Positions 29,946 to 54,739 of a DNA stretch of 64,000 bases are shown in pieces. The DNA comes from Desulfurivibrionaceae bacterium. GTDB lineage: Bacteria; Desulfobacterota; Desulfobulbia; Desulfobulbales; UBA5123. The notes beneath the pieces are model-generated. The model made no database searches, was not told the origin of the DNA, and saw only the letters and a list, made by a program, of their open reading frames with translations. The stretch lies in NCBI GenBank assembly GCA_030145325.1, contig JAQYVW010000006.1, positions 1 through 64,000 of the forward strand, written 5' to 3'. Position 1 is the stretch's first letter. Every line of letters starts with the position of its first letter. Both the position numbers and the translations under genes were made by a program.

Positions 29946-30021
29946 GGCCCCATCGTCTAGTGGCCTAGGACTCCGGCCTCTCACGCCGGCAACGGGGGTT
30001 CGAGTCCCCCTGGGGTCACCA
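29946..30021 (+). tRNA. tRNA-Glu (anticodon CTC)
   Basis: A 76-nt cloverleaf: acceptor stem 29946-29952 pairs with 30011-30017 (one G-T pair), followed by the anticodon stem CCGGC/GCCGG with a CTCTCAC loop giving anticodon CTC, a T-arm GGGGG-TTCGAGT-CCCCC, and an encoded ACCA end. The 3' part of the gene lies within the 81-bp repeat that marks the integration site of the island. Confidence 0.95.
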
Positions 30022-30057
30022 CGAAATACATTCAAGGGAATCAGTCATTTATGGCTG
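29977..30057. repeat. attL: left 81-bp direct repeat of the island
   Basis: These 81 bases run from the tRNA-Glu anticodon loop through CCA and into the tRNA terminator, and recur without a mismatch at 52832-52912. The next base differs (G here, A at the right copy), then identity resumes for a few bases. This is the classic footprint of integrase-mediated insertion into a tRNA 3' end. The integrase frame ends inside this repeat. Confidence 0.95.
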
Positions 30058-31107: not shown

Positions 31108-31267
31108 GTTCAACCTCCTTTTCAAAGAAGAGGATTTTGCGTGGCCCCAAGCGCACACCGCCTAACTCAGCATAGTACTTGCGCACGAAACGCACGTCAA
31201 CATGGAGTAATGCGGCCATATCTTTTGGCGTAAAGGCTTGACCAAGTGTTTTACTGATAGGTTCCAT
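30941..31267 (-). CDS. Small HTH (excisionase/AlpA-like) protein
   Basis: The first 56 residues look like a MerR/excisionase-type winged helix (TPKDMAALLHVDVRFVRKYY, then GVRLGPRKILFF). The rest of the 108-aa frame overlaps the integrase start by 167 bases in another frame and probably carries little function. The position directly before the integrase and the fold fit a directionality factor or regulator of integrase. The overlap could also mean a lost stop codon. No good Shine-Dalgarno precedes the ATG at 31267. Confidence 0.6.
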   Translation of the reverse strand: MEPISKTLGQAFTPKDMAALLHVDVRFVRKYYAELGGVRLGPRKILFFEKEVERAIQAQRQLVQKMDGTSNAQRQSYEKELCHQERSCSMGGRTEEEGCLVDSHGLFG

Positions 31268-32350: not shown

Positions 32351-32602
32351 GATGCACCTCCTGTCTGGAGTGTGAGGCATTTTTTTTGGGATGTACAGCA
32401 TTTTTTATCGTGTAATATCAGCTATTTCTATGCAATGTATCGTTTATAGAAATTTTGGGATAGGTTTGGCTTAGGGCGTTGATATTAGGATTAGGCTACG
32501 CCTATGGAGGGTGTTTTTGATTGTTAGGGTGTGGGTGCTATAATTTGGCTGAAAAAAAATTTGCCACGGTAATTTTTTTTGACTGAAAACAGTTTGGATT
32601 TG

Positions 32603-37400: not shown

Positions 37401-38208
37401 TGAAAATGTTAATGTATATGTAAAGTTCCTTTTTTTGGAGAGAAAGGTACTTGTATTTTCTAATAATGTTGGCAGCAGAAGCCGGGTTGTTGGGAAGGTG
37501 TATGAGTATTTCAAAGAGTTGTCTGTGAATAACAGAAACCTGTATGTTTCTGTTAATAATTTAGATTTTGTAAATACTGTACAGCTGCAAAAAGATGTCG
37601 AGTCAGGGTATAAAGAAATGCGTTCTGAGGATAATCAGATCTGTTCTGTTGAAGATTTTAAGCATCTTTTTGATAGAAATTTAAGTAGTGATGTCGAGGT
37701 ATTTGTTTCATATGCCAAGACAGATAAGGATTTTTTTGATGTTTTTTACAATAAGTTTACTGAAATAGCAGAGTATTCAGAGGGATTTGAGTTTAATATT
37801 TGGTGTGATAGGGGAATTGATGCAGGTTCGAACTGGCACCAGCAAATTCAAGAAAATTTGCATAAATGCCGTGTGGCAATATTTCTTGTAAGTAATTCTT
37901 TTATGGCTTCTGATTATATAAAAAATGAAGAGTTTAATCGATTTATTGCAAGAATGAGAAATGATAGATGTTTTTTTATTCCGATTTCTTTTGTCCCTTG
38001 CAGGTATACCCAATGGCCTGAGCTAACACAAAAACAATTTTATAAACCAGATGGAGGCAAGTACGGGAAGTCGGAAGTAGAAAATTTTACTTTTTCACAT
38101 CTTGTTGAATTTGATAATAATAGGAAGCCAAAGCCTAATCCATTTATCGATCAATACATCATAGACTTAATTGATAATATCGAAACATTGTTAAGCAAAG
38201 TTCATTAG
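34438..38208 (+). CDS. LRR-ROC-COR-TIR (Roco) protein, putative immune sensor-effector
   Basis: A 1256-aa protein. Residues 30-560 are leucine-rich repeats (LxxLxLxxNxI pattern). A ROC GTPase follows, with P-loop GNTTAGKTS near 590, G3 DFGGQEYYH near 642 and an NKID-type G4 (SQNKID) near 720, and then a COR-like region. Residues about 1084-1240 form a TIR domain (VFVSYAKTDKDFF) with a candidate catalytic Glu in IKNEEFNRF. Roco proteins are GTP-controlled switches, LRRs sense, and TIR domains commonly hydrolyse NAD, so an abortive-infection role is inferred. The gene is far more AT-rich than its neighbours, a sign of transfer. No Shine-Dalgarno is seen at the ATG. Confidence 0.9.
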   Translation: MKKVDNKRITRHIGLSYAYTYIRQCIVSGSWFLNLNNLLLEELPEIISECKTVKCLFLGSYYYDGSIYDIKYDEKNDEYSNNFTEIPKQIGKLTGLEVLYIDNNKIENLSGIEELKNLKRLNASSNRISNVKELQSLSFLSSLNLNNNKISHVRDVISISSLKHLSLNNNSIASVQGISSITNLAKLELAYNNIENFIDFADENGEFPKALISITGNKLNISHDYITFSHSVLSAQITKCLQNYLILKKRIGENKKTKKPYLNLNNMSLTGLPIELGELKHLKQLFIGSCYFNEETCSIENAYSKNRNRMASIPRIIGELANLEVLYVDNNQITSVDLVGYGSNIVELNLNFNKINKIKLVGNFKKLKRLYFCNNKIDSLGWLESVSDVEVVDISENLIEDVEIVGKLKKLKSIKISCNKLKNVTIDGVDSCKSIELMDCNIQNLSVCSSAMLKVIRLEFSEVRNLMLVDLEEITDLNLVNIGLRRIHLENLPGLKTLNISENYISSVENLIDLPRLASLNARDNRLSSISNFFKFIGESNNLKKLYLAGNRIRDIEPSLIAEWNCINTLSSYVAALSKGEESNTAAKLIVIGNTTAGKTSLCNFLVDGTYRPGQASTHGINNLELVIDDVVDGEDLNVSIWDFGGQEYYHATHHLFMSNNAVYVLVWEKDTNTNGFIDGEISLSGSNEKTVISIEHFHYEYWLDRARTYAPGSPIILSQNKIDIQNVEPIPESTCLEYQLNTSHILPISIQGVSCGNENYVIKYEDFKYNLLSLLKKSATKFRIGKYWLLVKKSIIEMRKNLSFITYDEFCKKCLKIDSTMDQLEIETLAKYLHETGVILHYVNTESLRSVVFTDPVWVCKIIYEILNRDVLDNEGEFTIKDVRKSVTGHSLSSQLVGLMLNFELVFKAPYDSHTYIAPQYLSESYEIYSPMYRNAISNHISELTTIAFVLKFKKFLAKSIVVKFMSQYGKYVEAPTFWKHGIIFRVENVNVYVKFLFLERKVLVFSNNVGSRSRVVGKVYEYFKELSVNNRNLYVSVNNLDFVNTVQLQKDVESGYKEMRSEDNQICSVEDFKHLFDRNLSSDVEVFVSYAKTDKDFFDVFYNKFTEIAEYSEGFEFNIWCDRGIDAGSNWHQQIQENLHKCRVAIFLVSNSFMASDYIKNEEFNRFIARMRNDRCFFIPISFVPCRYTQWPELTQKQFYKPDGGKYGKSEVENFTFSHLVEFDNNRKPKPNPFIDQYIIDLIDNIETLLSKVH

Positions 38209-41323: not shown

Positions 41324-41327
41324 CAGC

Positions 41328-41957
41328 TTAATGACCAGGCATGGGGGTAACACACATTGGAGCGACGCTTTCCAGCCACGGCCTTATGGATTCCAGAACA
41401 GGAAAATGAAAGTTGCTACAGTCGTCATTTAACATTCCAGCATTTTGTAGGACACGGTAGCGATCAAAAATTTGCTTCGCCAACTCATTAAGTCGGCCTT
41501 GGCAATCCTTTTCTTCGAAGTCGGCTTCCACAGTAATGTGGTCAAAATTTTCGCAAGTTCGATTGGATCTGATTTCCTCCGGCAAGCAGTCGAGACCGCG
41601 AAAGACCACCGGGAAGATTAACCCCTTGTTTCGTAGGTCATCTATCGTCTGTCCCAGGTGATGTTCCTCCAATTTGAGCATCGCTTGGTATTCTAATGCA
41701 CAGTATGGGTTGCATGGATCGAAATGGAGAGGAGAGTAAAACATCACCATGCAAGCACTGCGGCAAAGTTCGAATGCCAACTTTTCGTTGAAATGGTCGC
41801 CGACGTTGAGTCCTTTTTCGTCAAAAAAGACCGGCATGTTCGGCAACCACCACCCCAGTTGTTTCTTGAGTTGTCGCACAAAGGCCAACACGAATTGGTG
41901 AGCATCCGGGTCGCCGGTATGGCGGTAGCTGATAAAGCACGCATTAACATGTTCCAT
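41328..41957 (-). CDS. Stand-alone TIR-domain protein
   Basis: A 209-aa protein that is mostly a TIR domain. Strand A is ACFISYRHTGD, the BB-loop region carries VFFDEKGLNVGDHF, and the candidate catalytic Glu sits in NPYCALEYQAML. A short C-terminal extension follows. It resembles the toll/interleukin-type partner of KGGxGR-ATPase proteins (FxsC-like). The ATPase-TPR gene starts within a few bases of its stop, so the two are an operon pair. Probable NAD-consuming or nucleotide-signal-making effector; the activity is inferred from the fold. Confidence 0.85.
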   Translation of the reverse strand: MEHVNACFISYRHTGDPDAHQFVLAFVRQLKKQLGWWLPNMPVFFDEKGLNVGDHFNEKLAFELCRSACMVMFYSPLHFDPCNPYCALEYQAMLKLEEHHLGQTIDDLRNKGLIFPVVFRGLDCLPEEIRSNRTCENFDHITVEADFEEKDCQGRLNELAKQIFDRYRVLQNAGMLNDDCSNFHFPVLESIRPWLESVAPMCVTPMPGH

Positions 41958-42117: not shown

Positions 42118-43653
42118 TTAATCTTTTGATGCCGAAGGTGCAGTTTTCACCGCTTCCGCAATGGGGCCGAGCAACACCCCCTCGTTTACCTGTTCTGTAA
42201 TTAGGGCGCGATGGTGCACGGCAAAAAGATCCCACTGTCGATTAAAAACTGGTGAACCGGAGCTGCCGCCCTCGGTTGGGCTGCGGTAATGAACATAGGG
42301 CGGATCATAACCGGTAAGGTCGTTGTTGTATATTGATGCCGCCAATTCGCCACCCTTGGGGTGGCCGATGATATAGATTCTCTGTGGCTTTCCGCCGACC
42401 TGCGCCAACGCAGGATTATAAGGCGATGGTTGTAGGGGTGTTGCTCCCTCTGGCGGGTGCTCCATGCGGAGTATGGTTACGTCGAGTTGCGTTCGGGGAG
42501 AGGTGAATAGTAGTTCTCCCAAGGCGGCTTTGGGGCGGCCGGGGAGGCGAGTGAACTCTGCCTCTGCCGTATTCGGGTCAAGTGGGGCCTGATCCGACGG
42601 GTTAACGCTGAGCACATGGGAATTGGTTACAAACACCGGGGCATCACCCCAGTCAGCTCGCAGGCTTGAACCTTGAACAAGAAATCCGGTTCCGTAAGAG
42701 GCGCCGGAGGCTGAGTCAGACATGCGTGCTATCGCTAGGCAACGTTTCTGCAGTGTATCAAACCACTGAAGATGGATGAGTCCCTCGGCACCATACACGG
42801 CCTGAAAACCACTAGGGTCTAGTATCTGAGAGCCGGTCGGTTCAAGAGTGGCTCCTTCGCACTGCAACAGCGCATATTCCAAAACCGGCAGCAGCTTTCC
42901 TCCCTCCGGGGTGTCGTCAAGGCACCACACTTCTTTCATTTGGCGCAGGGTGCTGGCGATTTCGAAGGCATCGGTGTCTGGATGTTTGACATACTTACCC
43001 GTCCATTCCAACGCAGTATCCCAGTCCCCGATGGCCATGGATGCCTCCATGGCTGTTCCGTAATCCCAGACTCCGGTGGCGCCTTTCATTTCTATGTCGT
43101 TGAGGATGGTGCGAGCGATTTCTTGAACATTCAAGTTTATCCCGGTCGCCATACCGTCTTGGTCAGCCCTGGCTAGCAATGCGGCGACGTTGATTCCGTG
43201 CCAGCGGTAATCACCGCGTTGTTCCTGCCAGTCTGGCAGGTAAGCGACTAGTGCCTGTTTGAGATTGTCTGAGCCACCTTCGTTGACGTAGAGTTGTTTG
43301 TACGCACGTCCGATCAGGCCGCGGGTTTCTGGTCCTTCATGCGGGTCATCGGCCACCTCGTTCACTAAATCTTTGAGATCTTGCAATGCTTCGTGGATGA
43401 AGTTTTGATCTAATAATGACTGGGCTCTTTGTCGGCGGATCACTGGTGCCTGGAGGCCGGAATGGATGAAAGAGTCTGCCGTCTGTTTCATCTCGGCAAA
43501 TCGACGTTTACGTCGGAGTAAGCTGAGAATCATTCTGGCTTGGTCATCCCCGAAAGCTCTTGGGTCAATTTGTTGGGTGAGGTGTTGCACATCGGTGTAA
43601 CGGTATTCATTCAAGGCGGCTTTTAGAGTTGGTATGAATTCCTCTGGCTTCAT
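42118..43653 (-). CDS. TPR-S domain plus trypsin-like serine protease
   Basis: A 511-aa protein. Residues 1-270 are helical TPR-S-like repeats, including ETRGLIGRAYKQLY, which is matched by ERQGLIGGRYKKLA in the protein at 44745. The C-terminal half is a trypsin fold with the triad His in NSHVL (about 344), Asp in QLDVTIL (about 391) and Ser in GGSSGSPVF (about 466). The start at 43653 has GAGGAGG upstream and its A is shared with the TAA stop of the hydrolase gene; a longer frame to 43746 is rejected. Such proteases in bacterial conflict loci are thought to cut a partner or a cell target once the sensor is triggered. No signal peptide, so cytoplasmic. Confidence 0.88.
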   Translation of the reverse strand: MKPEEFIPTLKAALNEYRYTDVQHLTQQIDPRAFGDDQARMILSLLRRKRRFAEMKQTADSFIHSGLQAPVIRRQRAQSLLDQNFIHEALQDLKDLVNEVADDPHEGPETRGLIGRAYKQLYVNEGGSDNLKQALVAYLPDWQEQRGDYRWHGINVAALLARADQDGMATGINLNVQEIARTILNDIEMKGATGVWDYGTAMEASMAIGDWDTALEWTGKYVKHPDTDAFEIASTLRQMKEVWCLDDTPEGGKLLPVLEYALLQCEGATLEPTGSQILDPSGFQAVYGAEGLIHLQWFDTLQKRCLAIARMSDSASGASYGTGFLVQGSSLRADWGDAPVFVTNSHVLSVNPSDQAPLDPNTAEAEFTRLPGRPKAALGELLFTSPRTQLDVTILRMEHPPEGATPLQPSPYNPALAQVGGKPQRIYIIGHPKGGELAASIYNNDLTGYDPPYVHYRSPTEGGSSGSPVFNRQWDLFAVHHRALITEQVNEGVLLGPIAEAVKTAPSASKD

Positions 43654-44531
43654 TATGCCTCCTCTCGTTTGCACAGTTGCCGGAGATGCCGACGTAACAG
43701 GGGGCCCTGTAGATATTTGGTGGCTGAGTGTCGCCAGGTGCCCCAATTTCCCTCCTCGATATCAATGACTGTTTTTTGTCCGTTTTTGCGGAAATCGTTG
43801 GCGAGTCTCGGGTCTAGGCCTGCGACTATATCCAAACGGTCATAGACGTTGACCCAGTTCCCCTGAAGTTTTGCTGGGTAACCGTTGCTCCGTGACCAGT
43901 TCAGTCGATCCTGAATTTCGTCCAATCCAAGCGGGCTGCCAAGGGTAAGTAGTCCCGTCATTGGTGGGCAGGCCGGGACATCGGTTAATACGTCATAGGC
44001 GATAAATGATCCTTGGCTATGTCCTACAAGGACGCATTGGCTATCTGGAGGTATGCTGGCGAGCACCCGGTTGCGGATGATGTCCCGGATGCCATTGATG
44101 TTGAAGAGATAATCATGGGTTTCGCGTAGAAAATGTTCCAGCATTCGCTGTTTAATAGGCCAGGGTATAGGTATCCGTTCATAGCTTGGCGTGGTGTCAT
44201 CGACTGGTGCTTCTGGGTATGCTGTCTCATTGTCTGGAAAACGTTTTCGCATGGCCGCAAGCCAAGCGTTTGCACTGAGTGATAATTCTGTGGCTACCGC
44301 TTGTTCGAGTTCATTGGCGCGACTCTCATACTCTGCTGCCAGCAGCGGGGTGTCGTAGAAGAGATCCGCCCAGTAGACAAAAGAGGTGGTGACACCGACT
44401 GCCTCGGGATCAAACCCATTGTCACTATCCACCGGTTTGGCCAAGGCATCCAGCCAGATACGGCGCAGGTCATCGGGGGCTGGTTTGTTCGCCAGTCCAT
44501 GAATGAAGGTGATGTGAACTTTATCGGTCAT
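43653..44531 (-). CDS. Alpha/beta hydrolase (lipase/esterase-like)
   Basis: A 292-aa alpha/beta-hydrolase fold protein. It begins with an oxyanion-type FIHGLANKP strand, has the nucleophile elbow GHSQG near residue 170, and likely Asp and His in DRLDIVAGLD and TWRHSATKYL. No signal peptide. Start at ATG 44531 with AGGCG upstream; the in-frame ATG at 44546 is also possible. The stop overlaps the protease start, so it is tightly linked with the TPR-S/trypsin gene. In defence loci, hydrolases like this can attack membrane lipids, but the substrate here is unknown. Confidence 0.85.
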   Translation of the reverse strand: MTDKVHITFIHGLANKPAPDDLRRIWLDALAKPVDSDNGFDPEAVGVTTSFVYWADLFYDTPLLAAEYESRANELEQAVATELSLSANAWLAAMRKRFPDNETAYPEAPVDDTTPSYERIPIPWPIKQRMLEHFLRETHDYLFNINGIRDIIRNRVLASIPPDSQCVLVGHSQGSFIAYDVLTDVPACPPMTGLLTLGSPLGLDEIQDRLNWSRSNGYPAKLQGNWVNVYDRLDIVAGLDPRLANDFRKNGQKTVIDIEEGNWGTWRHSATKYLQGPLLRRHLRQLCKREEA

Positions 44532-44744
44532 GTTGTCACGCCTCATTTGTTAAGTTGTTCTGTCTTGTTTGTTAGAGAGCTATCAACCTCTGCTGTCCAG
44601 TCTAGTGATCTGTCACGCCGCTTTCGTAATCGTCGCGCGCTTTCCTGGTGAATGTCCAAGATCTTTTTAGGTTGCCTGATCGTTTGTCGAGGCGTTTGGG
44701 GGGCCTATCTTTTGGTGGTTTTGTACTCGGATTTTATCCGGTGA

Positions 44745-46097
44745 CTATAAAAGCGTTCGTAGTTCGGCGAGCAGGGCGGTCAGTTCCCGTTGTGTGGTCG
44801 GGGCTGCGGCCTGGCGTACGCTTCTTTCTAGATCGGCGATGGTGGTGTCTAGTTTCCAGGCTGCCGGGCCTTCCCGGCTTACCTCTTTGGCCCAATGTTT
44901 AGCAGCCGTCGCATCGCCGGCATCAAAGGCCATGCCCAGGAGGGTGGGTTTAAGCCATTCATCTTGTTGATTGTGCTCCTTGGCCCGTTCGCAGGCTAAG
45001 AGGGCGATTCGGGCCGTAAGTGCTGCCTTGTCGGCATCCCCTTCCTCGTTGCGCTCGCGGTAGAGGCGGGGCAGGTTGCAGGTAGGGTAGTAATCGTTCA
45101 GGTCAAGACTCATCCCGCGTTCGTAGTGGTCAATGGCTTGATCCAGGTAGCCTCGGTGGTGTTGCGGGTTGCCCTCCTTCAGGGCCTGGGTGGCAAGTTT
45201 TTTGTAGCGGCCACCGATCAGCCCCTGCCGTTCCGAGCTGTCGCCGCTGCGCTGGATCAATTCCGTAAGGGCGGCAATGGCGGCCAGGTTGTCGCCGGTT
45301 TTGGCTCGGGCGAGACAGCGTTGTTCCTTGATCAACTCAAGTTCCTGGATATCACCGGGCAAGGCATCGATATAGTCGATGGCTTCCTGCCAACCCGCGC
45401 AGTCGCGGAGCAGCATCACCATTTCCAGGGCTACCGACCGGGTCATGGGGACGGTGGCGGGAAGTTCCTCTTGCAGGGCCAAGGCCAGGCGTCGGCCTTG
45501 ATCGCGATCCGGGGAGAGCCGTGCCTCGCGGACTCGGGTCTGGAAGGCGGAAAGGCGGGTGAGTTGTTCCTTGATGGCGTTGGCGCGGTTCGGATCGACC
45601 TTGGCGGGATCCGGGAAGCCGGGGATAACTTGGTAGATGGGCGAGTCGCCTCGGGCAAGTTCGTGGAGCCCGGCCCGCAATGCCGCAGTGATTGCGACTG
45701 CCGAGGCGTCGGTGACAATGCCCTCGGCAAGGGGATAGGTGAGTCGCCGCATCTGATCCACATCAAAGAGGGGGCGAGACCAGTCAGCGCCGATGAGCAC
45801 ACAGCCGTTGCGCTTGCAGGCGTGGCGGATGCCGACCTCGTAGTAAACGTTGCCGTTGGGGATGGTCATGTCGGCAATGACCAGATCCGAGAAGTAGAGG
45901 CGTTCGAGCATCTCATGGATGATCAACGCTCCCACATCCTGATCGGCACGAACCGGTTCATAGCCCAGTTCACTGATGAGTGGTGCCAGAGCCTTGTTCC
46001 ACAGGGCATCAAAGTCAATTTTCTCCGGTGCCTTGGCGACCGGTGGTAGTACCTCCTTGATGCCGAAGGGCATGACCATGAAGCAGACGGGTTTCAT
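44745..46097 (-). CDS. Deoxyribosyltransferase-like (NDT/TIR-like) domain plus TPR-S
   Basis: A 450-aa two-domain protein. The N-terminal 130 residues (CFMVMPFG, then LVIADMTIPNGNVYYEVGIRHA) have the fold signatures of nucleoside 2-deoxyribosyltransferase-like domains that occur in nucleotide-signal and defence systems. Residues 160-450 are TPR-S/TRAFs-binding-type helical repeats, including ERQGLIGGRYKKLA. A GAGGA site precedes the ATG by about 11 bases. It may sense or hydrolyse a nucleotide derivative and pass the signal to the TPR-S protease two genes on; this is an inference. A 213-base gap separates it from the hydrolase gene. Confidence 0.8.
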   Translation of the reverse strand: MKPVCFMVMPFGIKEVLPPVAKAPEKIDFDALWNKALAPLISELGYEPVRADQDVGALIIHEMLERLYFSDLVIADMTIPNGNVYYEVGIRHACKRNGCVLIGADWSRPLFDVDQMRRLTYPLAEGIVTDASAVAITAALRAGLHELARGDSPIYQVIPGFPDPAKVDPNRANAIKEQLTRLSAFQTRVREARLSPDRDQGRRLALALQEELPATVPMTRSVALEMVMLLRDCAGWQEAIDYIDALPGDIQELELIKEQRCLARAKTGDNLAAIAALTELIQRSGDSSERQGLIGGRYKKLATQALKEGNPQHHRGYLDQAIDHYERGMSLDLNDYYPTCNLPRLYRERNEEGDADKAALTARIALLACERAKEHNQQDEWLKPTLLGMAFDAGDATAAKHWAKEVSREGPAAWKLDTTIADLERSVRQAAAPTTQRELTALLAELRTLL

Positions 46098-46163: not shown

Positions 46164-49100
46164 CTAAGGGGCAGGTCGAGTCATTTTTAGTGAGGATAGT
46201 AAGGATAGTATGTAGTCACGAATCCGGCTCTGGTCAGCCCCAAGGTCGGCAGGATCGCAATCATACAGCCAGATGAGATGATGAGTAAGTACTTCGCCAA
46301 CGGTCGGGTCTTCCTGTTTTAATAAGATATTAAACAGGTTCCAGGCAGAGCTTGTCGAATCCGGGTGTTCCTTGCCGAGTATCCTGTTGCTGACTTCCAG
46401 CGTTTTTTCTAGGAGCGTCCTTGCCCCGGCGAGATCGCCCTGTTCTTGGAGAGTTACAGCCAAATTGTCCATGGATTGGAGGGTGTCCGGGTGTTCCTCA
46501 CCGCGTACCCTGATGCTGATTTCCAGTGCTTTTTCCTCAAGCGTCCTTGCCCCGGTGAGATCGCCCTGTGTTTTGAGTGTTAAACCCAGGTTGTTCATGG
46601 CGGTGATGGTGTCCGGGTGTTCCTCGCCGAGTACCCTGATTCTGACTTCCAGCGCTTTTTCCTCAAACGTCCTTGCCTCAGCGAGATCGCCTTGTGCCCG
46701 GAGGGTTGCAGCCAGGTTGTTCATGGCGGTGAGGGTGTCCGGGTGGTCCTCGTCGCGTACCCTGATGCTGACTTCCAGCGCTTTTTCCTGGAGCATCCTT
46801 GCTCCGGTGAGATCGCCAAGTGCTTTGAGGGTTCCAGCCAGATTGTTCATGGCGGCCAGGGTGTCCGGGTGTTCCTCGCCGCGTACCCTGATGCTGACTT
46901 CCAGCGCTTTTTCCTCAAGCGTCCTTGCTCCGGTGAGATCGCCCTGTGCAGAGAGGGTTATAGCCAGGTTGTTCATGGATTTGAGGGTGTCCGGGTGGTC
47001 CTCGCCGAGTACCCTGATGCTGGCTTCCAGCGATATTTTCAGGAGCGTCCTTGCCCCGGCGAGATCGCCCTGTGCTTTGAGTGTTAAACCCAGGTTGTTC
47101 ATGGTGGTGAGGGTTTGCGGGTGTTCTTCGCCAAGGACCCTGATGCTGACTTCCAGCGCTTTTTCCTCAAACGTCCTTGCCCCAGCATGATCGCCCTGTG
47201 CTCTGAGGGTTGCAGCTAGGTTGTTCATAGCGGAGAGGGTGTCCGGGTGTTCCTCGCCGCGTACCCTGGTGTTGACTTCCAGCGCTTTTTCCTCAAACGT
47301 CCTTGCCCCAGCGAGATCGCCCTGTGCGCTGAGGGTATTCGCCAGTTCGCTCATGGATTTGAGGGTGCCCGGGTGTTCCTCGCCGAGAACCCTGGTGCAG
47401 AATTCCACCGTTTTTTCGTTGAGAGCCCTAGCTGTGGAGTAGCTGCCACGAATATAATCATAGTGACCAATGCTTAAGGCAAGAAGAACCGACCAGCTCC
47501 GGTCGTCAGCAGTGTCCTTGTAAAGATGGCGCCCATGTTCCACCTCCCTGGCCAGATCGGCATGGTTGCGGATGTCGGAAACGGAAACTACATCTAATGT
47601 TCCACTGAGCACTTCGATGGCAGCTCTCCTCAGACACTTGACCCGTTCCGGGGCTTGATCGTGGAAGCGTACGGTTCTGGTGATGAGGAGATGGACGGTC
47701 TGGCTTTGTTCGCCGGGGTGGTTTTCGGCCAAGGAGAGTTTGGCGGCCTGGTCAGCGGCAAGCAGGGCACGGGTGTTTGCTTGTTCCTCTGGCTGGTCAT
47801 CCGCCTTGGCAAAGACCCAACTTACCAGGCGGCGAGGTATGGGGGCGGTGGCCAGGCAGGCAGCGAGCCGCAGGTAATCGCGACCCGGTTCGTCCAGAAG
47901 GTCTATGCTCTGCAAAAAGGTAGCGGCGATATTCTTTTTATGGCCGTTGGGTAACTGACTGCCCAGTTGGGCCGCAAGTTCCAAGACGTCGTTATCCTTG
48001 GTATCCAGTTTAGCCAGAAACTCCGAGTATCCCATCTGTTGGGCGGCACCACCGGCAACGTCAACAGCCAGGGCGTGGCGGCCCAACCGGCTGATGGCGA
48101 TCTCACGGGCCAGCTGTTCTTCTTCATCGTTCACAGGGGCTTGGCCCTCGGTTCGGTGGGAGAGGAAAAGTTGCAGGGCCTCATCCGGCTCCAGCACATC
48201 CAGATCCAGGCGGTCTTGCTCGGTACCGTATTTGCGGCTGCGGGTGGTAATAATGGTCTTGCCAAAGGTGTCGGGTGCATGCCAGGCCCGCACCATTTCC
48301 ATGGTTAACTCCGAGGCGAGATCATCCACTACCCAGAGGAAGGGTAGTCCTTTTCCCCGTAATTTTCGTCTAATTTGCCCCTCCAGTTCGGGCAGGGGCA
48401 ACCCCTGCCCGCTGATCTCCAACCGTTGAGCGATGTCGCGGAAGGCGCTCTCTCGGATCATCTCCTGTTCTGCGGCTGTCCTTTTGGTATCATTGGAATC
48501 CTGACCACGGCCACGCAGCCAGAAGATGCCGCCGGGATATGCCGCCCCGAAGCGGAGGGCGTATTCCTCTGTCAGGAGTGATTTGCCCTGGCCACCCATT
48601 CCCGACACCTGGGCCTGGTCAGGATTCCCTGCGCGGCCTGAGATAATGGCATTTTCCCCTTCATGCAACCGGCTGTGTAGATCCCATAGTTCGGGAAGCC
48701 GACCCACGAAACGGCTGCTGCCGCTGATCTGGGCTCCATGTTGTGGTGTAGCGGTGACTGGCAAAATAGCGCCAAGGCAGTCTGTCACTTTAGCGAGGTG
48801 GGTGGCGATGCGGTGGGCTAGCTCGGTCGAGTCCAAGTCGCCGGAGAGAAAACGTTTGTCGCGTAGAGAAAGTGGCTGGATGTGGTCAACTTTATCTTCC
48901 GGGTTTATCACCAGAATTCGGGTAGCCGATCCTCTTGCCTGATCTGCGGCAATGTAAGCTGCGGTCAACTCCATCTGACAGGGTCGGGATTGGGGATAAT
49001 CTTTCGAGTACCAAGCGAGGAATGCCTTCGAACCGGCAAGCCCCTCACTGATTTCTTCGGTTATGGGGGCAAAGTCGTCAATCGCGTCCTCATCGAACCA

Positions 49101-49193
49101 GACCGATAGCCCCAGATCGCGCAGGGCCTGAATCAGGGGTTTGACCCGGTCGCCATCCAGATGATGGTAACTCACGAATAAATCGTAGGACAT
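46164..49193 (-). CDS. TIR-STAND(NB-ARC)-TPR protein, bacterial NLR-like
   Basis: A 1009-aa protein with the architecture of plant and animal NLRs. Residues 1-135 are a TIR domain (YDLFVSYHHLDGD, with Glu75 in CQMELTAAY in the catalytic position). A STAND/NB-ARC ATPase has Walker A GMGGQGKS at about 198-205, Walker B LWVVDDL near 285 and a TTRSRK sensor motif. Nine 42-residue kinesin-light-chain-like TPR units end the protein. The start at 49193 has GAGGAG 8 bases upstream. It follows the small TIR gene by a few bases. Likely a ligand-triggered NAD-depleting effector; the ligand is unknown, with the TPR array the probable sensor. Confidence 0.92.
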   Translation of the reverse strand: MSYDLFVSYHHLDGDRVKPLIQALRDLGLSVWFDEDAIDDFAPITEEISEGLAGSKAFLAWYSKDYPQSRPCQMELTAAYIAADQARGSATRILVINPEDKVDHIQPLSLRDKRFLSGDLDSTELAHRIATHLAKVTDCLGAILPVTATPQHGAQISGSSRFVGRLPELWDLHSRLHEGENAIISGRAGNPDQAQVSGMGGQGKSLLTEEYALRFGAAYPGGIFWLRGRGQDSNDTKRTAAEQEMIRESAFRDIAQRLEISGQGLPLPELEGQIRRKLRGKGLPFLWVVDDLASELTMEMVRAWHAPDTFGKTIITTRSRKYGTEQDRLDLDVLEPDEALQLFLSHRTEGQAPVNDEEEQLAREIAISRLGRHALAVDVAGGAAQQMGYSEFLAKLDTKDNDVLELAAQLGSQLPNGHKKNIAATFLQSIDLLDEPGRDYLRLAACLATAPIPRRLVSWVFAKADDQPEEQANTRALLAADQAAKLSLAENHPGEQSQTVHLLITRTVRFHDQAPERVKCLRRAAIEVLSGTLDVVSVSDIRNHADLAREVEHGRHLYKDTADDRSWSVLLALSIGHYDYIRGSYSTARALNEKTVEFCTRVLGEEHPGTLKSMSELANTLSAQGDLAGARTFEEKALEVNTRVRGEEHPDTLSAMNNLAATLRAQGDHAGARTFEEKALEVSIRVLGEEHPQTLTTMNNLGLTLKAQGDLAGARTLLKISLEASIRVLGEDHPDTLKSMNNLAITLSAQGDLTGARTLEEKALEVSIRVRGEEHPDTLAAMNNLAGTLKALGDLTGARMLQEKALEVSIRVRDEDHPDTLTAMNNLAATLRAQGDLAEARTFEEKALEVRIRVLGEEHPDTITAMNNLGLTLKTQGDLTGARTLEEKALEISIRVRGEEHPDTLQSMDNLAVTLQEQGDLAGARTLLEKTLEVSNRILGKEHPDSTSSAWNLFNILLKQEDPTVGEVLTHHLIWLYDCDPADLGADQSRIRDYILSLLSSLKMTRPAP
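46320..47440 (-). repeat. 126-bp tandem repeats encoding TPR units (TIR-STAND gene)
   Basis: About nine tandem copies of a 126-bp unit. The encoded consensus (RVLGEEHPDTL, MNNLA, AQGDLAGAR) is nearly the same as in the array at 38560-39925, 7 kb away on the same strand, which points to a recent common source or gene conversion between the two genes. Confidence 0.9.
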
Positions 49194-49217: not shown

Positions 49218-49718
49218 TTAGCGATTCTTGCTGGCCTCCTCGATGGCCTTTGGCAATGTTTCATGGCCCCACTTAAAGCTCTTACAACCATTTTCAGTCA
49301 GCGCCCGTGGCAATATCTTGGGAGGAGAATCACCCTTGTAGACCCCGATCACCCCTTTGCCCCGCTTCAGACTCTCTTCGATCTCCCAGTTGACCCACTG
49401 ACTTTTCGCGCTATGCTCGCTAAGGTAAACGGCTGTTACCGAGGCCCTGTCGATCTTCTCCCGAATCTGGCGCTTGATGTAATCGGCGTTAGTGCTGTCG
49501 AATGCGTCTTTAACCGAGTGATCGTCAAAATTCAGCGGCGTCTTATCGTTCTTTGCCTGGCCGCGTAAGAGGTTCACCTCGTTGAGATCTTCGTAAGCAA
49601 AGCTGATGAAAACATGTCGGCTTGTGTCGGTGGCAGCGCTGGTAAGCTTTTTCTTGGCACTTTCTTCCAGACGCGTAAGGTCGGCATGTGAAATTCCTCC
49701 TCCCGAGTGTCCGCCCAT
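49218..49718 (-). CDS. ThsB-like (DUF1863) TIR protein with Gly-rich N-terminus
   Basis: A 166-aa protein. Residues 34-130 are a MTH538/DUF1863-type TIR fold (RHVFISFAYED, then SQWVNWEIEESLKRGKGVIGVY with the likely catalytic Glu112), the class that includes ThsB of Thoeris, which makes a cyclic ADP-ribose signal from NAD. The start is ATG 49718: GAGGAGGGG lies directly upstream and the QueC stop is 1 base before it. This gives the unusual N-terminus MGGHSGGGISHADLTR. A longer frame to 49790 overlaps QueC and is rejected. Coupling to QueC and the Gly-rich end make it a candidate substrate of the QueC-like enzyme. Confidence 0.85.
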   Translation of the reverse strand: MGGHSGGGISHADLTRLEESAKKKLTSAATDTSRHVFISFAYEDLNEVNLLRGQAKNDKTPLNFDDHSVKDAFDSTNADYIKRQIREKIDRASVTAVYLSEHSAKSQWVNWEIEESLKRGKGVIGVYKGDSPPKILPRALTENGCKSFKWGHETLPKAIEEASKNR

Positions 49719-49719
49719 A

Positions 49720-50313
49720 TCACCCCTCCTCGTCATTGACGAATTCAAGACATGAAATGCACCGGCCGCAGGGTTGCGCGGTGCCGGCATGACAGGAGTA
49801 CGTCCCTTCGATTCCTTTTTTCCGAGCCAGCCTCAACACATCGGCCTTGCTGAATTCCGATAGCGGTGTAAGCACTTTGATCGGTTTGGCGAGAGCAGTC
49901 TGGATGGTGGATTCCGCCTGCCTGATGAAGTCGTTGCGCTGGTCGGGAAAGAGGCTGAATCGCTCGGCAAGGAGGCCGATTGCCACCCCGTCCGCCTCCA
50001 CCTGATGGGCGTATGCGCTGCCCATTAGAAGGAACAAGAGGTTGCGGCCAGGGGTGAACGCGTGAGTCTTGACGTCCAAATCTGGCGTGGTAAGGCCGGA
50101 GCGAATCACCTGGCCGAATCCGGAGAGATCCATCCTGGTGGGGTTGGGCAGGTCAAGACGATCATGAACACGCTGACAACTCTCCCATTCCTGTGTGGCG
50201 GCGCGTTGTCCGTAGTCAATGAACAAGGGGAATACCTCGGCACCTTCTTCTCGGGCCATTACGCCAACCAAGGTAGAATCAAGGCCTCCTGAGACCAGGT
50301 TCACCAGGCTCAT
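49720..50313 (-). CDS. QueC-like 7-cyano-7-deazaguanine synthase family protein
   Basis: A 197-aa PP-loop ATPase. SGGLDST (residues 8-14) is the ATP-pyrophosphatase loop, and Cys174, Cys182, Cys185 and Cys188 make the QueC zinc site. It starts inside the stop of the OGG-like gene (ATGA overlap, 50310-50313). True QueC turns carboxydeazaguanine into preQ0. In the company of TGT- and OGG-like genes, as in type IV CBASS, QueC-like proteins serve immunity rather than tRNA modification, and recent work (recalled, not checked) reports that they attach a deazaguanine to a protein N-terminus. No other queuosine pathway genes lie nearby, which favours the immune role. Confidence 0.88.
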   Translation of the reverse strand: MSLVNLVSGGLDSTLVGVMAREEGAEVFPLFIDYGQRAATQEWESCQRVHDRLDLPNPTRMDLSGFGQVIRSGLTTPDLDVKTHAFTPGRNLLFLLMGSAYAHQVEADGVAIGLLAERFSLFPDQRNDFIRQAESTIQTALAKPIKVLTPLSEFSKADVLRLARKKGIEGTYSCHAGTAQPCGRCISCLEFVNDEEG

Positions 50314-51026
50314 ATCAACGCTTCTCTTTTGGCCACGCGCATTGTTACCCACATGGCCAGATCTAGGCTGCCCACTGCATGGCCGAATTCTGTTGCCAAT
50401 CGTTGGAATTCATCTTCGATACGCTCATAGCCAGACAGCCGCGACAAGGTGCCGGGCCGGGGGGCAATACCGCGTGCCATACGCAGGTAGTCGAGGACAT
50501 GGGTGTCGAGTACCGCAAGCTCTGAACAGAAGCCGATCCGTCTCAAAAAGAGACTCGCCTGTTTCGGGCCGAAGCCCCAGACCATCTTGATTAATATTTT
50601 GCGTGCATCACGAGCCGAAGGGGCAGAGGAAAGGATTCGATGTAGCGATGTTCCTTGTTCGCGCATCGTGGCTACGGTTTTGGCAAGTAAAGAGGCAAGG
50701 CGGTTCTTGAAACGCGGTCTCATGGTTCGTTTTTTGCCGTTCACCTTCACTGTCAGGGGGGTAGAAAACGAGGCTACTAACTTTGTTTCATAAACCGATT
50801 GCCAGTTGTCGCCATACTGATCATGCCGTAACAATCCTTGTTGTCGAAGTCGTTCCGCCGTTGCCACCGAAACCTCGTAAATCATTTGGCTGCCGAAAAT
50901 ACAAGTTGCCGCTTCTTGTAGTAATTCTTCTTCAGTTAGTCGGTGCCACGCAGTGTCCGGGCTGCTGGTTGCTTCGGCCTCGGAACAGAGTTCTTTTATT
51001 GTTTGGTTAATCAGCGCGAGCGTCAT
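50310..51026 (-). CDS. OGG/HhH-GPD-like DNA glycosylase
   Basis: A 238-aa helix-hairpin-helix glycosylase-like protein. The HhH hairpin with the candidate catalytic Lys is in VWGFGPKQASLFLRRIG, and the conserved Asp follows in AVLDTHVLDYL, as in 8-oxoguanine glycosylases of the OGG2/AGOG type. The start at 51026 overlaps the TGT-like stop (ATGA) and has GGAAGGAG upstream; a longer frame to 51098 is not supported. Its place between TGT- and QueC-like genes mirrors the accessory set of type IV CBASS. It may bind or remove a deazaguanine-like base rather than act in ordinary base excision repair. Confidence 0.85.
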   Translation of the reverse strand: MTLALINQTIKELCSEAEATSSPDTAWHRLTEEELLQEAATCIFGSQMIYEVSVATAERLRQQGLLRHDQYGDNWQSVYETKLVASFSTPLTVKVNGKKRTMRPRFKNRLASLLAKTVATMREQGTSLHRILSSAPSARDARKILIKMVWGFGPKQASLFLRRIGFCSELAVLDTHVLDYLRMARGIAPRPGTLSRLSGYERIEDEFQRLATEFGHAVGSLDLAMWVTMRVAKREALI

Positions 51027-52015
51027 ACGGATGACTCCTTCCAGCCCAATGCTTCGGTGCAGTGGGCGAAGATGCGTGGTTGGAAATTGGCACGGCAAAA
51101 TTTAACGCCATTGCCGTGATGAATGTCGCTTCGCAGCCGGGCAAGCCAGTCGGTATAGAAGTCAAGGTTGTGGGCGAGGGTGCTGGTCTGGAAGCCGACC
51201 CCCATCTCGTCCCATTTGGATTGGGCTTTGAAAAAATCCACTTGGGTAGAATGGAACAGAAAACCTGTCTCGTAGTCAACGACTGTTTGGCACCACTCCA
51301 ACCCATCGTAGCTGTCGGCACCGGCAAGGGAGTAGATTGCGATGGAAAGTGGATTGCCGGTCCCCAAGAGGTGGAGACCGACGTATCGCCCCAGGTTGTT
51401 CAATGACTGGCGGATAGCCTTGACAGTCTGCGCCCGTGCAAAGATCCCATCCCCCAATCGACGTTCGGGTACTGCGAGCATGGCAACACCGGAAATTTCC
51501 GCAACCTCACGACAAAGGGACGGTAAGTCGTCGGGTGCCCCGTGGATGATTGGAATGAGCGTTGTTGAGGTGGCAACCGCCTGGTCTTTTCCCCACCGCT
51601 CAATTACGAGTTTCACATGTGCATCGTGGTTGTCTGGGGGTGATTGTTCGTCGAAACAGAAGGCGAGCGAGCTGGGAAATTGTTGTAAGGTCCGGTGGAA
51701 ATGGTCTTGTTGCCAAGCGGCTTGAGTATTGTGCCAGTAGCTCTCGTAGTTGCCTGAATCCATCAGCACTATATTGCCGGCATCGGTAGCCTTGTGAAGT
51801 AGGGCAAGGATCATTTCCTGATCGGCTTCTTCAGCGTGCGCAAGATCATAAGCGGAAACAAGGAATTGCTTGTTCTGGGCAGTGAGAGCAGCCAGCAGTT
51901 TTATGTACTCCACTGGTGGGAGGTTGGTTTTGATTGAGGATACAGAAGGAAAAAAAATTGGCAGGTCGAGGTCGACATTGCCAAGTGAAAGTCGTTTCGG
52001 ACGGGGTGCGGACAT
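51023..52015 (-). CDS. TGT-like (tRNA-guanine transglycosylase family) protein
   Basis: A 330-aa TIM-barrel protein of the TGT/DpdA superfamily. The base-binding Asp86 is in LMDSGNYESYW, a second acidic motif is CFDEQSPP, and the nucleophile-type Asp is in ADSYDGLEWC after HLLGTGNPLS. The C-terminal CxCxxC zinc site of true tRNA transglycosylases is absent, as in DNA- or protein-directed relatives. AAAGGA precedes the ATG at 52015. It is the first gene of the minus-strand defence operon, ATGA-coupled to the OGG-like gene. The function is probably recognition or exchange of a deazaguanine on a non-tRNA target. Confidence 0.85.
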   Translation of the reverse strand: MSAPRPKRLSLGNVDLDLPIFFPSVSSIKTNLPPVEYIKLLAALTAQNKQFLVSAYDLAHAEEADQEMILALLHKATDAGNIVLMDSGNYESYWHNTQAAWQQDHFHRTLQQFPSSLAFCFDEQSPPDNHDAHVKLVIERWGKDQAVATSTTLIPIIHGAPDDLPSLCREVAEISGVAMLAVPERRLGDGIFARAQTVKAIRQSLNNLGRYVGLHLLGTGNPLSIAIYSLAGADSYDGLEWCQTVVDYETGFLFHSTQVDFFKAQSKWDEMGVGFQTSTLAHNLDFYTDWLARLRSDIHHGNGVKFCRANFQPRIFAHCTEALGWKESSV

Positions 52016-52103
52016 TATGTTTTCCTTTCAATGGTCATGTTGAATGGTGAGTAGTGATATCGTCATGAGGATAAATTTTTGTGGTTTATTGTGGGACACA
52101 ACA

Positions 52104-52124
52104 GTCAACATATTTCCAAAACAT
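52104..52124. repeat. Right copy of the ~20-bp repeat flanking the defence block
   Basis: This matches 38392-38411 in the same orientation with one substitution and one extra A. It also forms an inverted repeat with the TTGACTGT that follows (52126-52133). It lies about 90 bases upstream of the TGT-like start, so it may instead be an operator of the operon. Confidence 0.5.
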
Positions 52125-52549
52125 ATTGACTGTATTCGCTAAACCCCAGCTTTGCTATCGCCTCGGGATTCATCCTCTATTTTCTCTCGAATTATCTTTG
52201 CTTTCTCATTTGTCCCACCAAATAGATGTTGCGTCTTGGTTGGAATTTACTGAATGCTATCTTCCGCCTTAGGGGCGGCCGCGTTGATCATGGTAATCAA
52301 ACTACACCTTGTTAGGAAGGTGTGCCAAATAAAAACGAATTAAAACATCGGAAAACGGTTTCTTGAGAATAAAATGATCTGGATTGTCGTGGTTATAGTT
52401 TGGACTACAAAGGGAGTTGTTTTTTTATTGATCACTGATTGATTCAGGTATCTTTTAAAGAAAATGTATTTGATGGGGTAGCTTGTGGTTCTGGTTAAAA
52501 CTAACGTTTTTCATCAGTTAAAAAAAGCTTAACTAATGAACACCAGAAT

Positions 52550-52581
52550 ATTGTTCCACTTTTTTGAGACCGTGGAACAAT
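52550..52581. other. 10-bp perfect inverted repeat
   Basis: Arms 52550-52559 and 52572-52581 (ATTGTTCCAC and its complement) flank a 12-base loop that begins with T6. It has no T-tract after the second arm in either direction and is more like a protein-binding site than a terminator. Confidence 0.5.
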
Positions 52582-52728
52582 GTGTAGGGTCGTCAGGATC
52601 GGGTGTGTAGCCATGGTGGGATAGTGTGTTAGGATAGGTTAGGGCGTCAGGTTGGATTGTCTCGGATTCATACCATGGCAAGTTTAGTGTGATAGCGTCG
52701 GTAAGAATTCGACAACTTGAAGTTCACT

Positions 52729-52768
52729 GGTGGTACTTTCGGTGGTTTTTCTGGTGGTTTCTGGTGGT
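52729..52768. repeat. Phased GGTGGT motifs near attR
   Basis: GGTGGT occurs at 52729, 52741, 52753 and 52763, that is at 12-, 12- and 10-base steps, about one helical turn apart. Their place 60-100 bases inside the right repeat fits arm-type integrase or excisionase sites. Confidence 0.45.
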
Positions 52769-52831
52769 CGTTAACGTTTATTAATGTTTTTTAAGTGGCT
52801 GAAATAATAGGCAATGTGCGCTTCCGGGTGT

Positions 52832-52912
52832 CCTCTCACGCCGGCAACGGGGGTTCGAGTCCCCCTGGGGTCACCACGAAATACATTCAAGGGAATCAGT
52901 CATTTATGGCTG
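52832..52912. repeat. attR: right 81-bp direct repeat with tRNA-Glu 3' fragment
   Basis: Identical to 29977-30057. It contains the 3' part of tRNA-Glu (anticodon loop to CCA) and the start of its terminator; the 5' part of the tRNA is missing here, so this is not a functional tRNA gene. The following terminator stem is perfectly paired, whereas the left copy has a T-G pair. Confidence 0.95.
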
Positions 52913-52942
52913 ATTCCCTTTTTTTTGTTTGCTGCTCCGTCT

Positions 52943-53068
52943 CCACGTGAGCCGGAACAGTTCAGCCCGGTGAGCCGCCAAGTACAAGTCCGTCAGCAGC
53001 ACCATCCGGTCTCTATCGTTCAGGCAGGCGTCAAAGACGGCCCAGAAATCCTTTTCCGGGTGGGATCG
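52943..53068 (-). pseudogene. Remnant of a second, related integrase
   Basis: A reading frame of about 42 residues (PEKDFWAVFDACLNDRDRM, then LYLAAHRAELFRLTW) matches the region around the catalytic Arg of the island integrase (PPEKDFWAAYDACLNDQDRV, LHLAARRSELFRLKW) with clear divergence. Everything before and after it is gone; the frame runs straight into the att repeat. This is a scar of another element that once used the same tRNA site, left outside the present island. Confidence 0.85.
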
Positions 53069-53141
53069 TCTTGGCAGTGTAAAAAAAACTTGTTGGGAGC
53101 CCATTTCTCTGATGGTGTTCAATACTTTTTAACCTGGATCT

Positions 53142-53249
53142 TTAAAGGCCGGGGATGCCGATTGGGCCAGGTAAGTCCGGGATGCCGCATCCGGCAATAG
53201 CGATGGCGGTGATGGTGATAATAAGAAGGTTGAGAATCTTCATGTTCAT
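53142..53249 (-). CDS. Tiny lipoprotein (35 aa)
   Basis: A short frame starts at ATG 53249 (or 53243), with AAGGA 8 bases upstream. It encodes a hydrophobic signal segment (KILNLLIITITAIAI) ending in a lipobox AIAGC with Cys21, followed by a short Pro/Gly tail (GIPDLPGPIGIPGL). This is the usual form of very small envelope lipoproteins of unknown role. It lies between the integrase remnant and trpB, so it may be core or the leftover of the older element. Confidence 0.7.
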   Translation of the reverse strand: MNMKILNLLIITITAIAIAGCGIPDLPGPIGIPGL

Positions 53250-53539
53250 AATAATTGTCCTTAGTGTTTGGTTTTGTTTAGTCGACTGAGGCGATATTTA
53301 TATCTAGCAGATTTTAAGAAAGAGTTGTCTGAAAAAATAGCATGGCTAAGTTCATTGAAGAATTGCTTACTCTGTTTTTTTAACTAATCATAAGTTTTCT
53401 TGTTGATAGTTCTTGTTGTTTGTTTTCTGTGTAGCTATTTTGCTATTTGGTGAACTGGCGGGGTCGCGGTGGCGAGGAAAACGGCGACCTGATAGGTGAT
53501 TTTTTTGCTCCATCGTTATAGGAGAATGAGGATATTTCA

Positions 53540-54739
53540 ATGACCATTGAGTTTGCAGAGATGCCGGATGCGGAAGGATATTTCGGAGAATATGGTGGTC
53601 AGGTTATTCCGCCGGAATTAAAGGCAGTGATGGATGATATCAATGTTGCTTACGATGAGGTACGGAAAACCCAAGCCTTCCAGGATGAGTTAGCGGAGTT
53701 GTATACCCACTATGTCGGTAGGCCAAGCCCGATTTTTTATGCTAGAAGGCTTTCTGAAAAAATCGGCGGGGCGCGGATTTTCCTGAAGCGCGAGGATCTT
53801 AATCATACCGGCGCCCACAAGATTAACCACTGCCTGGGTGAGGCGTTGTTGGCCAAACATATGGGCAAGAAAAAGGTGCTGGCGGAAACCGGTGCTGGTC
53901 AGCATGGCGTTGCCTTGGCCACCGCCTGTGCCCTGGTTGGCATCCCTTGTGAAATCCACATGGGTGAGGTGGATATAAAGAAGGAGCATCCCAACGTCAC
54001 CAAGATGAAGATCCTCGGTTGTGATTTGATCCCGGTTTCGCGTGGCACCAAGACGCTGAAGGATGCGGTGGATAGCGCTTTTGATGAGTATCTGCGTGAT
54101 CCGGTAAATTTTCTCTATGCCATCGGCTCGGTGGTGGGGCCCCACCCCTTCCCAAGGATGGTTCGGGATTTTCAAAGTATAGTCGGCAAGGAGGCGCGGG
54201 CTCAGTTTTGGGAGCGTGAGCAGCAGTTGCCGACAGTGGTCACGGCCTGTGTGGGCGGTGGTTCCAATGCTATCGGCATTTTTACCGAGTTCTTGCCGGA
54301 CGAAGAGGTACGGCTTATCGGGGTTGAGCCTGCCGGTCTGGGTCTTGATACCCCTGATCATGCCGCCACCCTTACCTTGGGGGTGAAGGGCGCGATTCAT
54401 GGTTTTAAATGTTATAATTTGCAGGATGAGAAGGGCAATCCGCTGGCGGTCTATTCCATTGCCTCCGGCCTTGATTATCCTGGTGTTGGCCCGCAGCATT
54501 CTTACCTGAAAGATCATGGTCGGGTAACCTATGAGACCGTGGATGATAAGGAATGTCTGGATGCTTTTATTACTCTTTCGCGTACCGAAGGAATAATTCC
54601 GGCCCTGGAAAGCGCTCACGCCGTGGCCTATGCCATGCGCCTCGGCAAGGGGATGTCGGCGGCGGAGACGATACTGATTAATCTTTCCGGCCGTGGTGAC
54701 AAGGATGCAGATTTTGTCGCTGAAAAACTGGGATTGTAA
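53540..54739 (+). CDS. trpB: Tryptophan synthase beta chain
   Basis: TrpB condenses indole with serine using pyridoxal phosphate. The 399-aa product has the PLP lysine in [15 protein letters not shown], the [11 protein letters not shown] loop, the phosphate-binding GGGSNAIG and the C-terminal [12 protein letters not shown] sites precede the ATG at 53540. No trpA or other trp gene is adjacent in this window, and the gene has its own terminator, so it is expressed alone. Confidence 0.97.

Follow-up and report, generated by a model that had tools for sequence, protein, structure and literature searches.

The window analysed here, a 64,000-nucleotide stretch of a Desulfurivibrionaceae bacterium genome (contig JAQYVW010000006.1, positions 1 to 64,000, forward strand), contains a cassette in which a ThsB-like TIR protein with a glycine-rich N-terminal tail is encoded directly behind a QueC-like enzyme. 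Because relatives of this enzyme attach a modified guanine to tails of just this sort, the conserved glycine tail points to a type of TIR immunity that has not been described, under the control of such a chemical tag. In the mechanism that we favour with good confidence, the QueC-like enzyme would attach a 7-deazaguanine to residue Gly2 of the TIR protein, and a Cap10-like protein of the TGT family would read the mark. The deazaguanylation of proteins was discovered only recently; it was shown in the type IV cyclic-oligonucleotide-based antiphage signalling system (CBASS) (PMC11996544) and proposed in Qat (PMC13279940). A preliminary description of this DNA had noted that QueC-like immune enzymes are reported to attach a deazaguanine to the N-termini of partner proteins. 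The precedent is real, as Cap9 of type IV CBASS joins 7-carboxy-7-deazaguanine (CDG) to the N-terminal glycine of a CD-NTase (PMC11996544; PMC13279940, both as available).

Start and N-terminal tail of the TIR protein

The genes were ordered on the minus strand as TGT-family, HhH, QueC-family, and TIR, all overlapping or abutting (Table 1). The TIR gene was translated as MGGHSGGGISHADLTRLEESAKKKL...VFISFAYED..., with the N-terminus MGGHSGGGISHADLTR. Because the stop codon of the QueC-like gene lies at 49720–49722 and the ATG of the TIR gene at 49716–49718, the two genes were separated by the single base 49719, exactly the spacing given in the preliminary description. The AGGAGG sequence, located 6 bases from this ATG, gave it the top start score, in agreement with the earlier claim that the ribosome site fixes the start of the protein. 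The in-frame ATGs that lie upstream, at −71 and −17 relative to the stop of QueC, had weaker Shine-Dalgarno scores and were rejected as starts.

In the AlphaFold model of the TIR protein, residues 1–10 had a mean predicted local distance difference test (pLDDT) value of 51, residues 11–30 formed a helix, and the TIR fold began at residue 34. The low confidence of residues 1–10 suggests that the tail is probably flexible, and the model in this way supports the flexible glycine-rich tail before the fold that had been described previously. Structural neighbours of the model included 8fz9 and ThsB, and residue Glu112 was invariant in an alignment of 43 sequences.

Conservation of the MGG start in homologous loci

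Homologous loci were searched with the HhH protein, independently of the TIR protein and its tail. The resulting 86 loci were composed of 80 loci from a genome-collection scan (the best 80 of 111 relatives), one from a viral scan, the window itself, three loci on plasmids, and a single genome locus first located via the Cap10-like gene; L030 and L010 are one and the same site, and L009 was outside the count. In profile searches, the HhH, QueC, and TIR genes were found in that order in 84 of the 86 loci, and a TGT-like gene was located upstream in 83 of these 84. At L088, the profile searches found the HhH protein alone and no QueC–TIR pair; the second exception, L024, is described below. The four TGT, HhH, QueC, and TIR genes are a conserved cassette.

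The start of each TIR gene was chosen by Shine-Dalgarno strength, with an extra point for ATG and with ties going toward the QueC stop. An MGG start was chosen by this rule in 81 of the 82 scored loci. At the remaining one, L076, the best-scored start was not MGG, and MGG was present as an alternative ATG. L090 was missed by the distance filter, and the reading frame of L079 is broken at a later point; on manual reading, both started with MGG. The TIR protein of L017 was truncated by the contig end. Conservation of MGG among QueC-adjacent TIR proteins had been set beforehand as a test of the deazaguanylation idea, and both Gly2 and Gly3 were present in all 84 QueC–TIR pairs, three of them not by the rule alone, so that the idea was not refuted but supported. 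Furthermore, residues 2–9 included five to eight Gly or Ser residues in every QueC-paired TIR protein.

All four glycine codons were used at Gly2 and at Gly3 among 81 distinct sequences (for Gly2, GGC 42, GGT 24, GGA 13, and GGG 2), which indicates that selection acts on the protein. When the cores of 81 TIR proteins were compared, the minimum identity was 40% and the median 54%, with 21 clusters at 70%. As a control, 568 other open reading frames (ORFs) of these loci were scored with nearly the same start rule, ties being broken upstream; an MG start was found in 38 and an MGG start in 4. An origin of MGG by chance or local composition was rejected on the basis of the 4 control ORFs and the use of all four codons.

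The MGG start was also not a general trait of TIR proteins. None of the 36 additional TIR ORFs from these loci (37 less one fragment of a cassette TIR) had an MGG at any candidate start within the first 80 codons. Among 15 TIR rows in 12 further loci, 14 had no MGG; the genome loci in this set were short (~3–4 kb), so that a distant QueC beside these control TIRs could have been missed. The fifteenth row, L101, started with MGGGGGGG, was 51% identical to the TIR protein of the window, and was located at a contig edge. Most control TIRs started at the fold itself, for example with MPKRVFISF and, as annotated, MPTRRVFIS. The counts of 0/36 and 0/14 for TIRs not beside QueC led to the rejection of this possibility.

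Broken copies of cassette genes were observed for TIR in L079 (8240–8672) and L058 (4463–4970), for HhH in L035 (6929–7710), and for QueC in L024 (1423–1917). These copies may represent either real decay or assembly errors.

Structure of the TGT-like protein and motifs of the HhH protein

The TGT-like protein fell just under the Pfam TGT cut-off and was matched by the PADLOC TGT model, which we take to be the CBASS one. In a phmmer search, it matched 9ntn_A with an E-value of 8.6e-7. The structure 9ntn_A is Cap10 complexed with NDG-modified CdnD, in which the N-terminus is deazaguanylated. When the model of the TGT-like protein (pLDDT 92.5) was compared with solved structures, the nearest was again 9ntn_A, with a Z score of 26.4 over 292 residues, followed by a next value of 23.4. 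Among the 50 Foldseek matches listed, 9ntn_A had the highest target-normalised TM-score, 0.69. By Z score, Cap10 is thus the solved structure that the predicted fold most resembles.

Fusions and neighbours were counted over 83 loci, some of which were cut by contig ends, and matches anywhere in the fetched flanks were included. An N-terminal TIR domain was fused to the TGT-like protein in 46 of the 83 loci (e.g. L006, 6596–7999), and the Glu of the dEL motif in the fused TIR domain was conserved in at least 90% of the 46 rows. The stand-alone form of the TGT-like protein usually had a SLATT (DUF4231) gene directly upstream. In the HhH protein, the motifs GPKQ[AS] and [IL]DxH[VI], which presumably bear the catalytic Lys and Asp, were found in all 84 sequences.

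The QueC-like enzyme and alternative explanations

The QueC-like protein of the window was matched by Cap9 (9nto_B) with an E-value of 1.3e-13. The SGGxDS loop, the Q of YGQ, the RN pair, the Asp of PDQ, Lys153, and the four zinc cysteines were kept in all 84 QueC-like proteins; one residue of SGGxDS was masked in L035. The catalytic motifs of the cassette enzyme were intact.

Several observations weigh against conjugation by a Cap9-type enzyme with a Cap10-like reader. The Cap9 motifs YxDC and CE, as given in the available text of PMC13329287, were FPDQ and CH in the cassette enzyme. On the nucleobase side, Tyr was replaced by Phe in 83 of 84 proteins and Cys by Gln in all 84, so the modifying base could differ. 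In a tree of 91 sequences, the 81 cassette rows grouped together (97/94) and were separated from the 2 Cap9 rows and the 7 canonical ones; the deeper joins were unsure owing to long branches. Since the cassette branch lies outside both the Cap9 and the canonical branches, a function homologous to that of Cap9 is an extrapolation. By Foldseek E-value, ordinary TGTs ranked above Cap10 9ntn_A. At L024, the QueC gene stopped mid-gene into other sequence and no TIR was found; this locus is from the same assembly as L017, 1,224 bases are common to both at 99.9%, and the interruption may be an assembly join or a real break. Finally, the cassette of the window was without the SLATT or PfkB partner that is common in other loci.

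The replaced residues and the separate clade would support a modification of the TIR N-terminus by the QueC-like enzyme in which another acid, or a 7-deazapurine that has been processed further, is used rather than plain CDG. PfkB profile matches in 39 of the 83 loci and the Ogg-like gene in all 84 pairs would fit such a product, and the product of QatC is itself thought to be possibly distinct in the available text of PMC13279940. However, the motif Asp, ATP loop, RN pair, Lys153, and zinc cysteines were all kept, and the predicted TGT-like fold was nearest to a structure solved with a CDG-derived mark. A different base is therefore considered unlikely.

The tail might instead merely dock in the QueC and TGT proteins and hold together a three-protein complex with no covalent bond. 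In QatBC, the tail sits in the active site of the QueC-type protein and a chemical product was not found, as far as the available text of PMC13279940 reports. However, the residues of the ATP loop and the zinc site were kept across 84 proteins, beyond what docking needs, and the invariant Gly2 fits an acceptor amine, as Cap9 does conjugate. Docking without conjugation is thus quite improbable.

Elsewhere in the same genome, a second queC of the canonical type, a gene of the QueD family, and a tgt were found; the cassette copies of QueC and TGT are therefore extra. The separate queC and tgt, together with the other TIRs without an MGG start, the proximity of the TGT model to Cap10 by Z score, and the similar tail of two CBASS cyclases, leave hardly any probability that QueC and TGT act on nucleic acid, in a deazaguanine pathway of tRNA or DNA, and that the adjacent TIR is a Thoeris-like NADase of the ordinary kind whose linker is generic, even though the QueC, TGT, and Ogg-type proteins belong to modification and repair families by Pfam.

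Proposed mechanism

In the conjugation mechanism favoured here, we infer every chemical and signalling step as well as the role in defence. Met aminopeptidase removes Met before a small second residue, and this enzyme would expose Gly2 of the TIR protein. By extension from Cap9, the QueC-like enzyme would then activate CDG, the product of QueE, with ATP and form an amide bond with Gly2; analogy with Cap9 likewise suggests that the base is CDG itself. The Cap10-like protein, for which the nearest solved relative is a TGT reshaped to accommodate such an N-terminus, would bind the modified tail and license or restrain the TIR protein. Because the Cap10-like protein is TIR-fused in 46/83 loci, reading of the mark would there pair two TIR domains, and pairing of TIR domains is the switch-on route of many TIR NADases. 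The mark may activate rather than restrain the TIR protein, in a system that may fight phage. Upon infection, the TIR protein may make a signal derived from nicotinamide adenine dinucleotide (NAD) or deplete NAD, and a linked effector (SLATT membrane protein, TPR-S protease, or TIR-NB-ARC) would execute the response.

A broader proposal, to which we give an even chance, is that immunity by deazaguanylation has a third class, represented by these cassettes and found widely among bacteria, whose tagged protein is a TIR signalling enzyme; the base tag on one TIR would drive its pairing with a second, as a covalent switch for TIR assembly. If the mechanism is true, the TIR protein would be the third substrate of deazaguanylation and of an unrelated fold, the tag would be suggested to be a portable control module, and the question of what turns a ThsB-like TIR on or keeps it inactive would have a testable answer. 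The conserved tail also provides a search rule, namely a QueC-family gene followed by an MGG protein.

Genomic setting, partners, and hosts

The coordinates of the features of the window are listed in Table 1.

Table 1. Features of the cassette and its surroundings in the 64,000-nucleotide window
Feature	Position	Strand	Remarks
Left copy of 81-base exact direct repeat	29977..30057	+	includes 3' end of tRNA-Glu (29946-30021)
Large LRR-Roc-COR protein with C-terminal TIR domain	34438-38208	+	between repeats
TPR-array protein with AAA_31-like (ParA-type) N-terminal part	38516-41353	-	
Further TIR protein overlapping the TPR-array protein	41328-41957	-	
TPR-S and trypsin-like peptidase protein, candidate effector	42118..43656	-	PF13365, PF20308
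Alpha/beta-hydrolase-like protein	43653..44546	-	Pfam match below cut-off
TPR-S protein	44745..46097	-	PF20308 E 2.5e-17
TIR-NB-ARC-TPR protein, candidate effector or sensor of the window cassette	46164..49193	-	Pfam TIR_2, NB-ARC, TPR
ThsB-like TIR protein, 166 aa	49218..49718	-	PF08937 E 5.7e-22 (over cut-off); PADLOC ThsB
Gly-rich N-terminal tail of TIR protein (MGGHSGGGISHADLTR)	49671..49718	-	proposed acceptor Gly2 after Met removal
Shine-Dalgarno AGGAGG of TIR gene	49725..49730	-	within 3' end of QueC-like gene
QueC-like enzyme, 197 aa, Cap9-like role proposed	49720..50313	-	PF06508 E 1.1e-41; PADLOC QueC E 4e-26
Ogg-type HhH glycosylase-like protein, 238 aa	50310..51026	-	PF22175 E 2.5e-21; 4-base overlap with QueC
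Cap10-like protein of the TGT family, 330 aa; proposed to read the modified tail	51023..52015	-	PADLOC TGT E 1.4e-25; 4-base overlap with HhH
Right copy of 81-base exact direct repeat	52832..52912	+	two copies bound ~22.9 kb holding the cassette

The TIR-NB-ARC-TPR gene started 24 bases past the stop of the TIR gene and was followed by the TPR-S, hydrolase-like, and TPR-S-protease genes. Homologues of the hydrolase-like and TPR-S-protease genes also followed the cassette in L040, L061, and L062. The ~22.9-kb stretch between the repeats contained the cassette, the LRR-Roc-COR-TIR protein, the further TIR protein, TPR proteins, and an S24-type repressor, and we interpret it as a genomic island at tRNA-Glu with many TIR proteins. 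Two minus-strand ORFs beside the left repeat (30583–31158 and 31301–32401) are candidate recombinase or integrase pieces, because one had a weak Arm-DNA-binding match below the cut-off and the other no Pfam match, and an integrase was thus not confirmed from these two ORFs. An Rfam search found nothing at 51900–53600.

Among the 83 loci, TPR-S matches were found in 43, and the two overlapping SLATT profiles matched in 33 and 38. PfkB kinase genes were linked to the cassette, and on a Neotabrizicola plasmid a gene annotated as nucleoside 2-deoxyribosyltransferase preceded a different QueC, an arrangement that recalls Cluster 4 in the available text of PMC13329287; the positions concerned are 5348–6529 in L006 and 3661–5609 in L110. 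An archaeal plasmid (Natronomonas; L109, 4513–5465) contained a pair of a DUF4231 (SLATT-type) gene and a TIR gene; in that stretch no QueC was annotated or found, and the TIR was without a Gly tail.

As labelled in the sequence records, the hosts of the cassette included Proteobacteria, Acidobacteria, Planctomycetota, Nitrospira, Chlorobiaceae, Bacteroidia, Clostridiales, and others. Single contigs of metagenome-assembled genomes labelled Micrarchaeota and Paceibacterota were also among the hosts, and these may be mis-binned. In the phylum of the window, a close Cap10-like match was found in 2 of 395 genomes, its own and G213, so the cassette was not common there.

Comparison with known systems

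A literature survey, with the text of the Science 2025 family paper outside it, found no description of QueC–TIR cassettes. The term 'TIR' was absent from the main text of PMC13279940 and PMC13329287 in the parts available. When the cassette was compared with the canonical queuosine proteins QueC and Tgt, the Pfam families were the same (TGT just under the cut-off), whereas the cassette QueC formed its own branch, the TGT model was nearest to Cap10 by Z score, and the genes adjoined a TIR gene. The cassette shared with Thoeris a TIR domain of the ThsB type (PF08937) in which the Glu position was kept, but the cassette TIR differed in its Gly tail and in the linked QueC, TGT, and HhH genes. The ThsA partner in Thoeris is a SIR2-SLOG or macro-TM protein, and no ThsA-type domain was found among the eight window proteins scanned.

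The qatABCD system also contains a QueC-family enzyme, and the N-terminal glycine motif of QatB (MGTS) is needed for defence (PMC13279940). In contrast to the cassette enzyme, QatC is larger by ~20 kDa, bears extensions, and carries threonines in place of the nucleobase residues, according to the available text of the same report, and QatB is a different protein from TIR. An extended QueC of the QatC type was not found in the window, where the QueC-like protein has 197 residues and matched the QatC profile with an E-value of 0.0099 and 12.8 bits, and neither the QatA ATPase nor the QatD TatD nuclease domain was present among the eight scanned proteins.

The closest resemblance was to the deazaguanylation of type IV CBASS. 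In both systems, an enzyme of the QueC family is found next to a protein of the TGT family and to a partner whose N-terminus is rich in Gly and, in the two cyclases examined, starts with MGG. The type IV CBASS cyclase of L005 started with MGGGGGKSSGSRP (MGGGGGKSS), and that of L111 with MGGSGGGFFSNSDITKELREAE, also given as MGGSGGGFFSNSDI, which resembles the start of the L010 TIR protein, MGGGSGGGLFSSDIRSLEDK (also given as MGGGSGGGLFSSDI). The solved CdnD aligned with SGGSFGSGFDPRDI near its start. This tail sample was small, two cyclases and one solved chain, because viral scans for type IV CBASS and a phage search yielded no comparator. The Pseudanabaena locus L111 also had a SLATT-like gene (below the cut-off) after the cyclase, as in many cassettes.

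The two systems differed in that the partner in the cassette was a TIR protein and not a CD-NTase, the QueC was on its own branch, and the Cap10-like protein was TIR-fused in many loci. When ORFs of at least 60 codons in the 86 loci and the whole window were searched with a profile of two type IV cyclases, no CD-NTase match was obtained at an E-value of 0.01, and a type IV CBASS with an overlooked cyclase was rejected. The cassette resembles the deazaguanylation of type IV CBASS but is not type IV CBASS, because the defining cyclase was not found. The TIR and cyclase folds are unrelated, and what they share is their QueC and TGT partners. The best reading is a cassette of the deazaguanylation type in which a ThsB-like TIR protein stands in for the cyclase of type IV CBASS.
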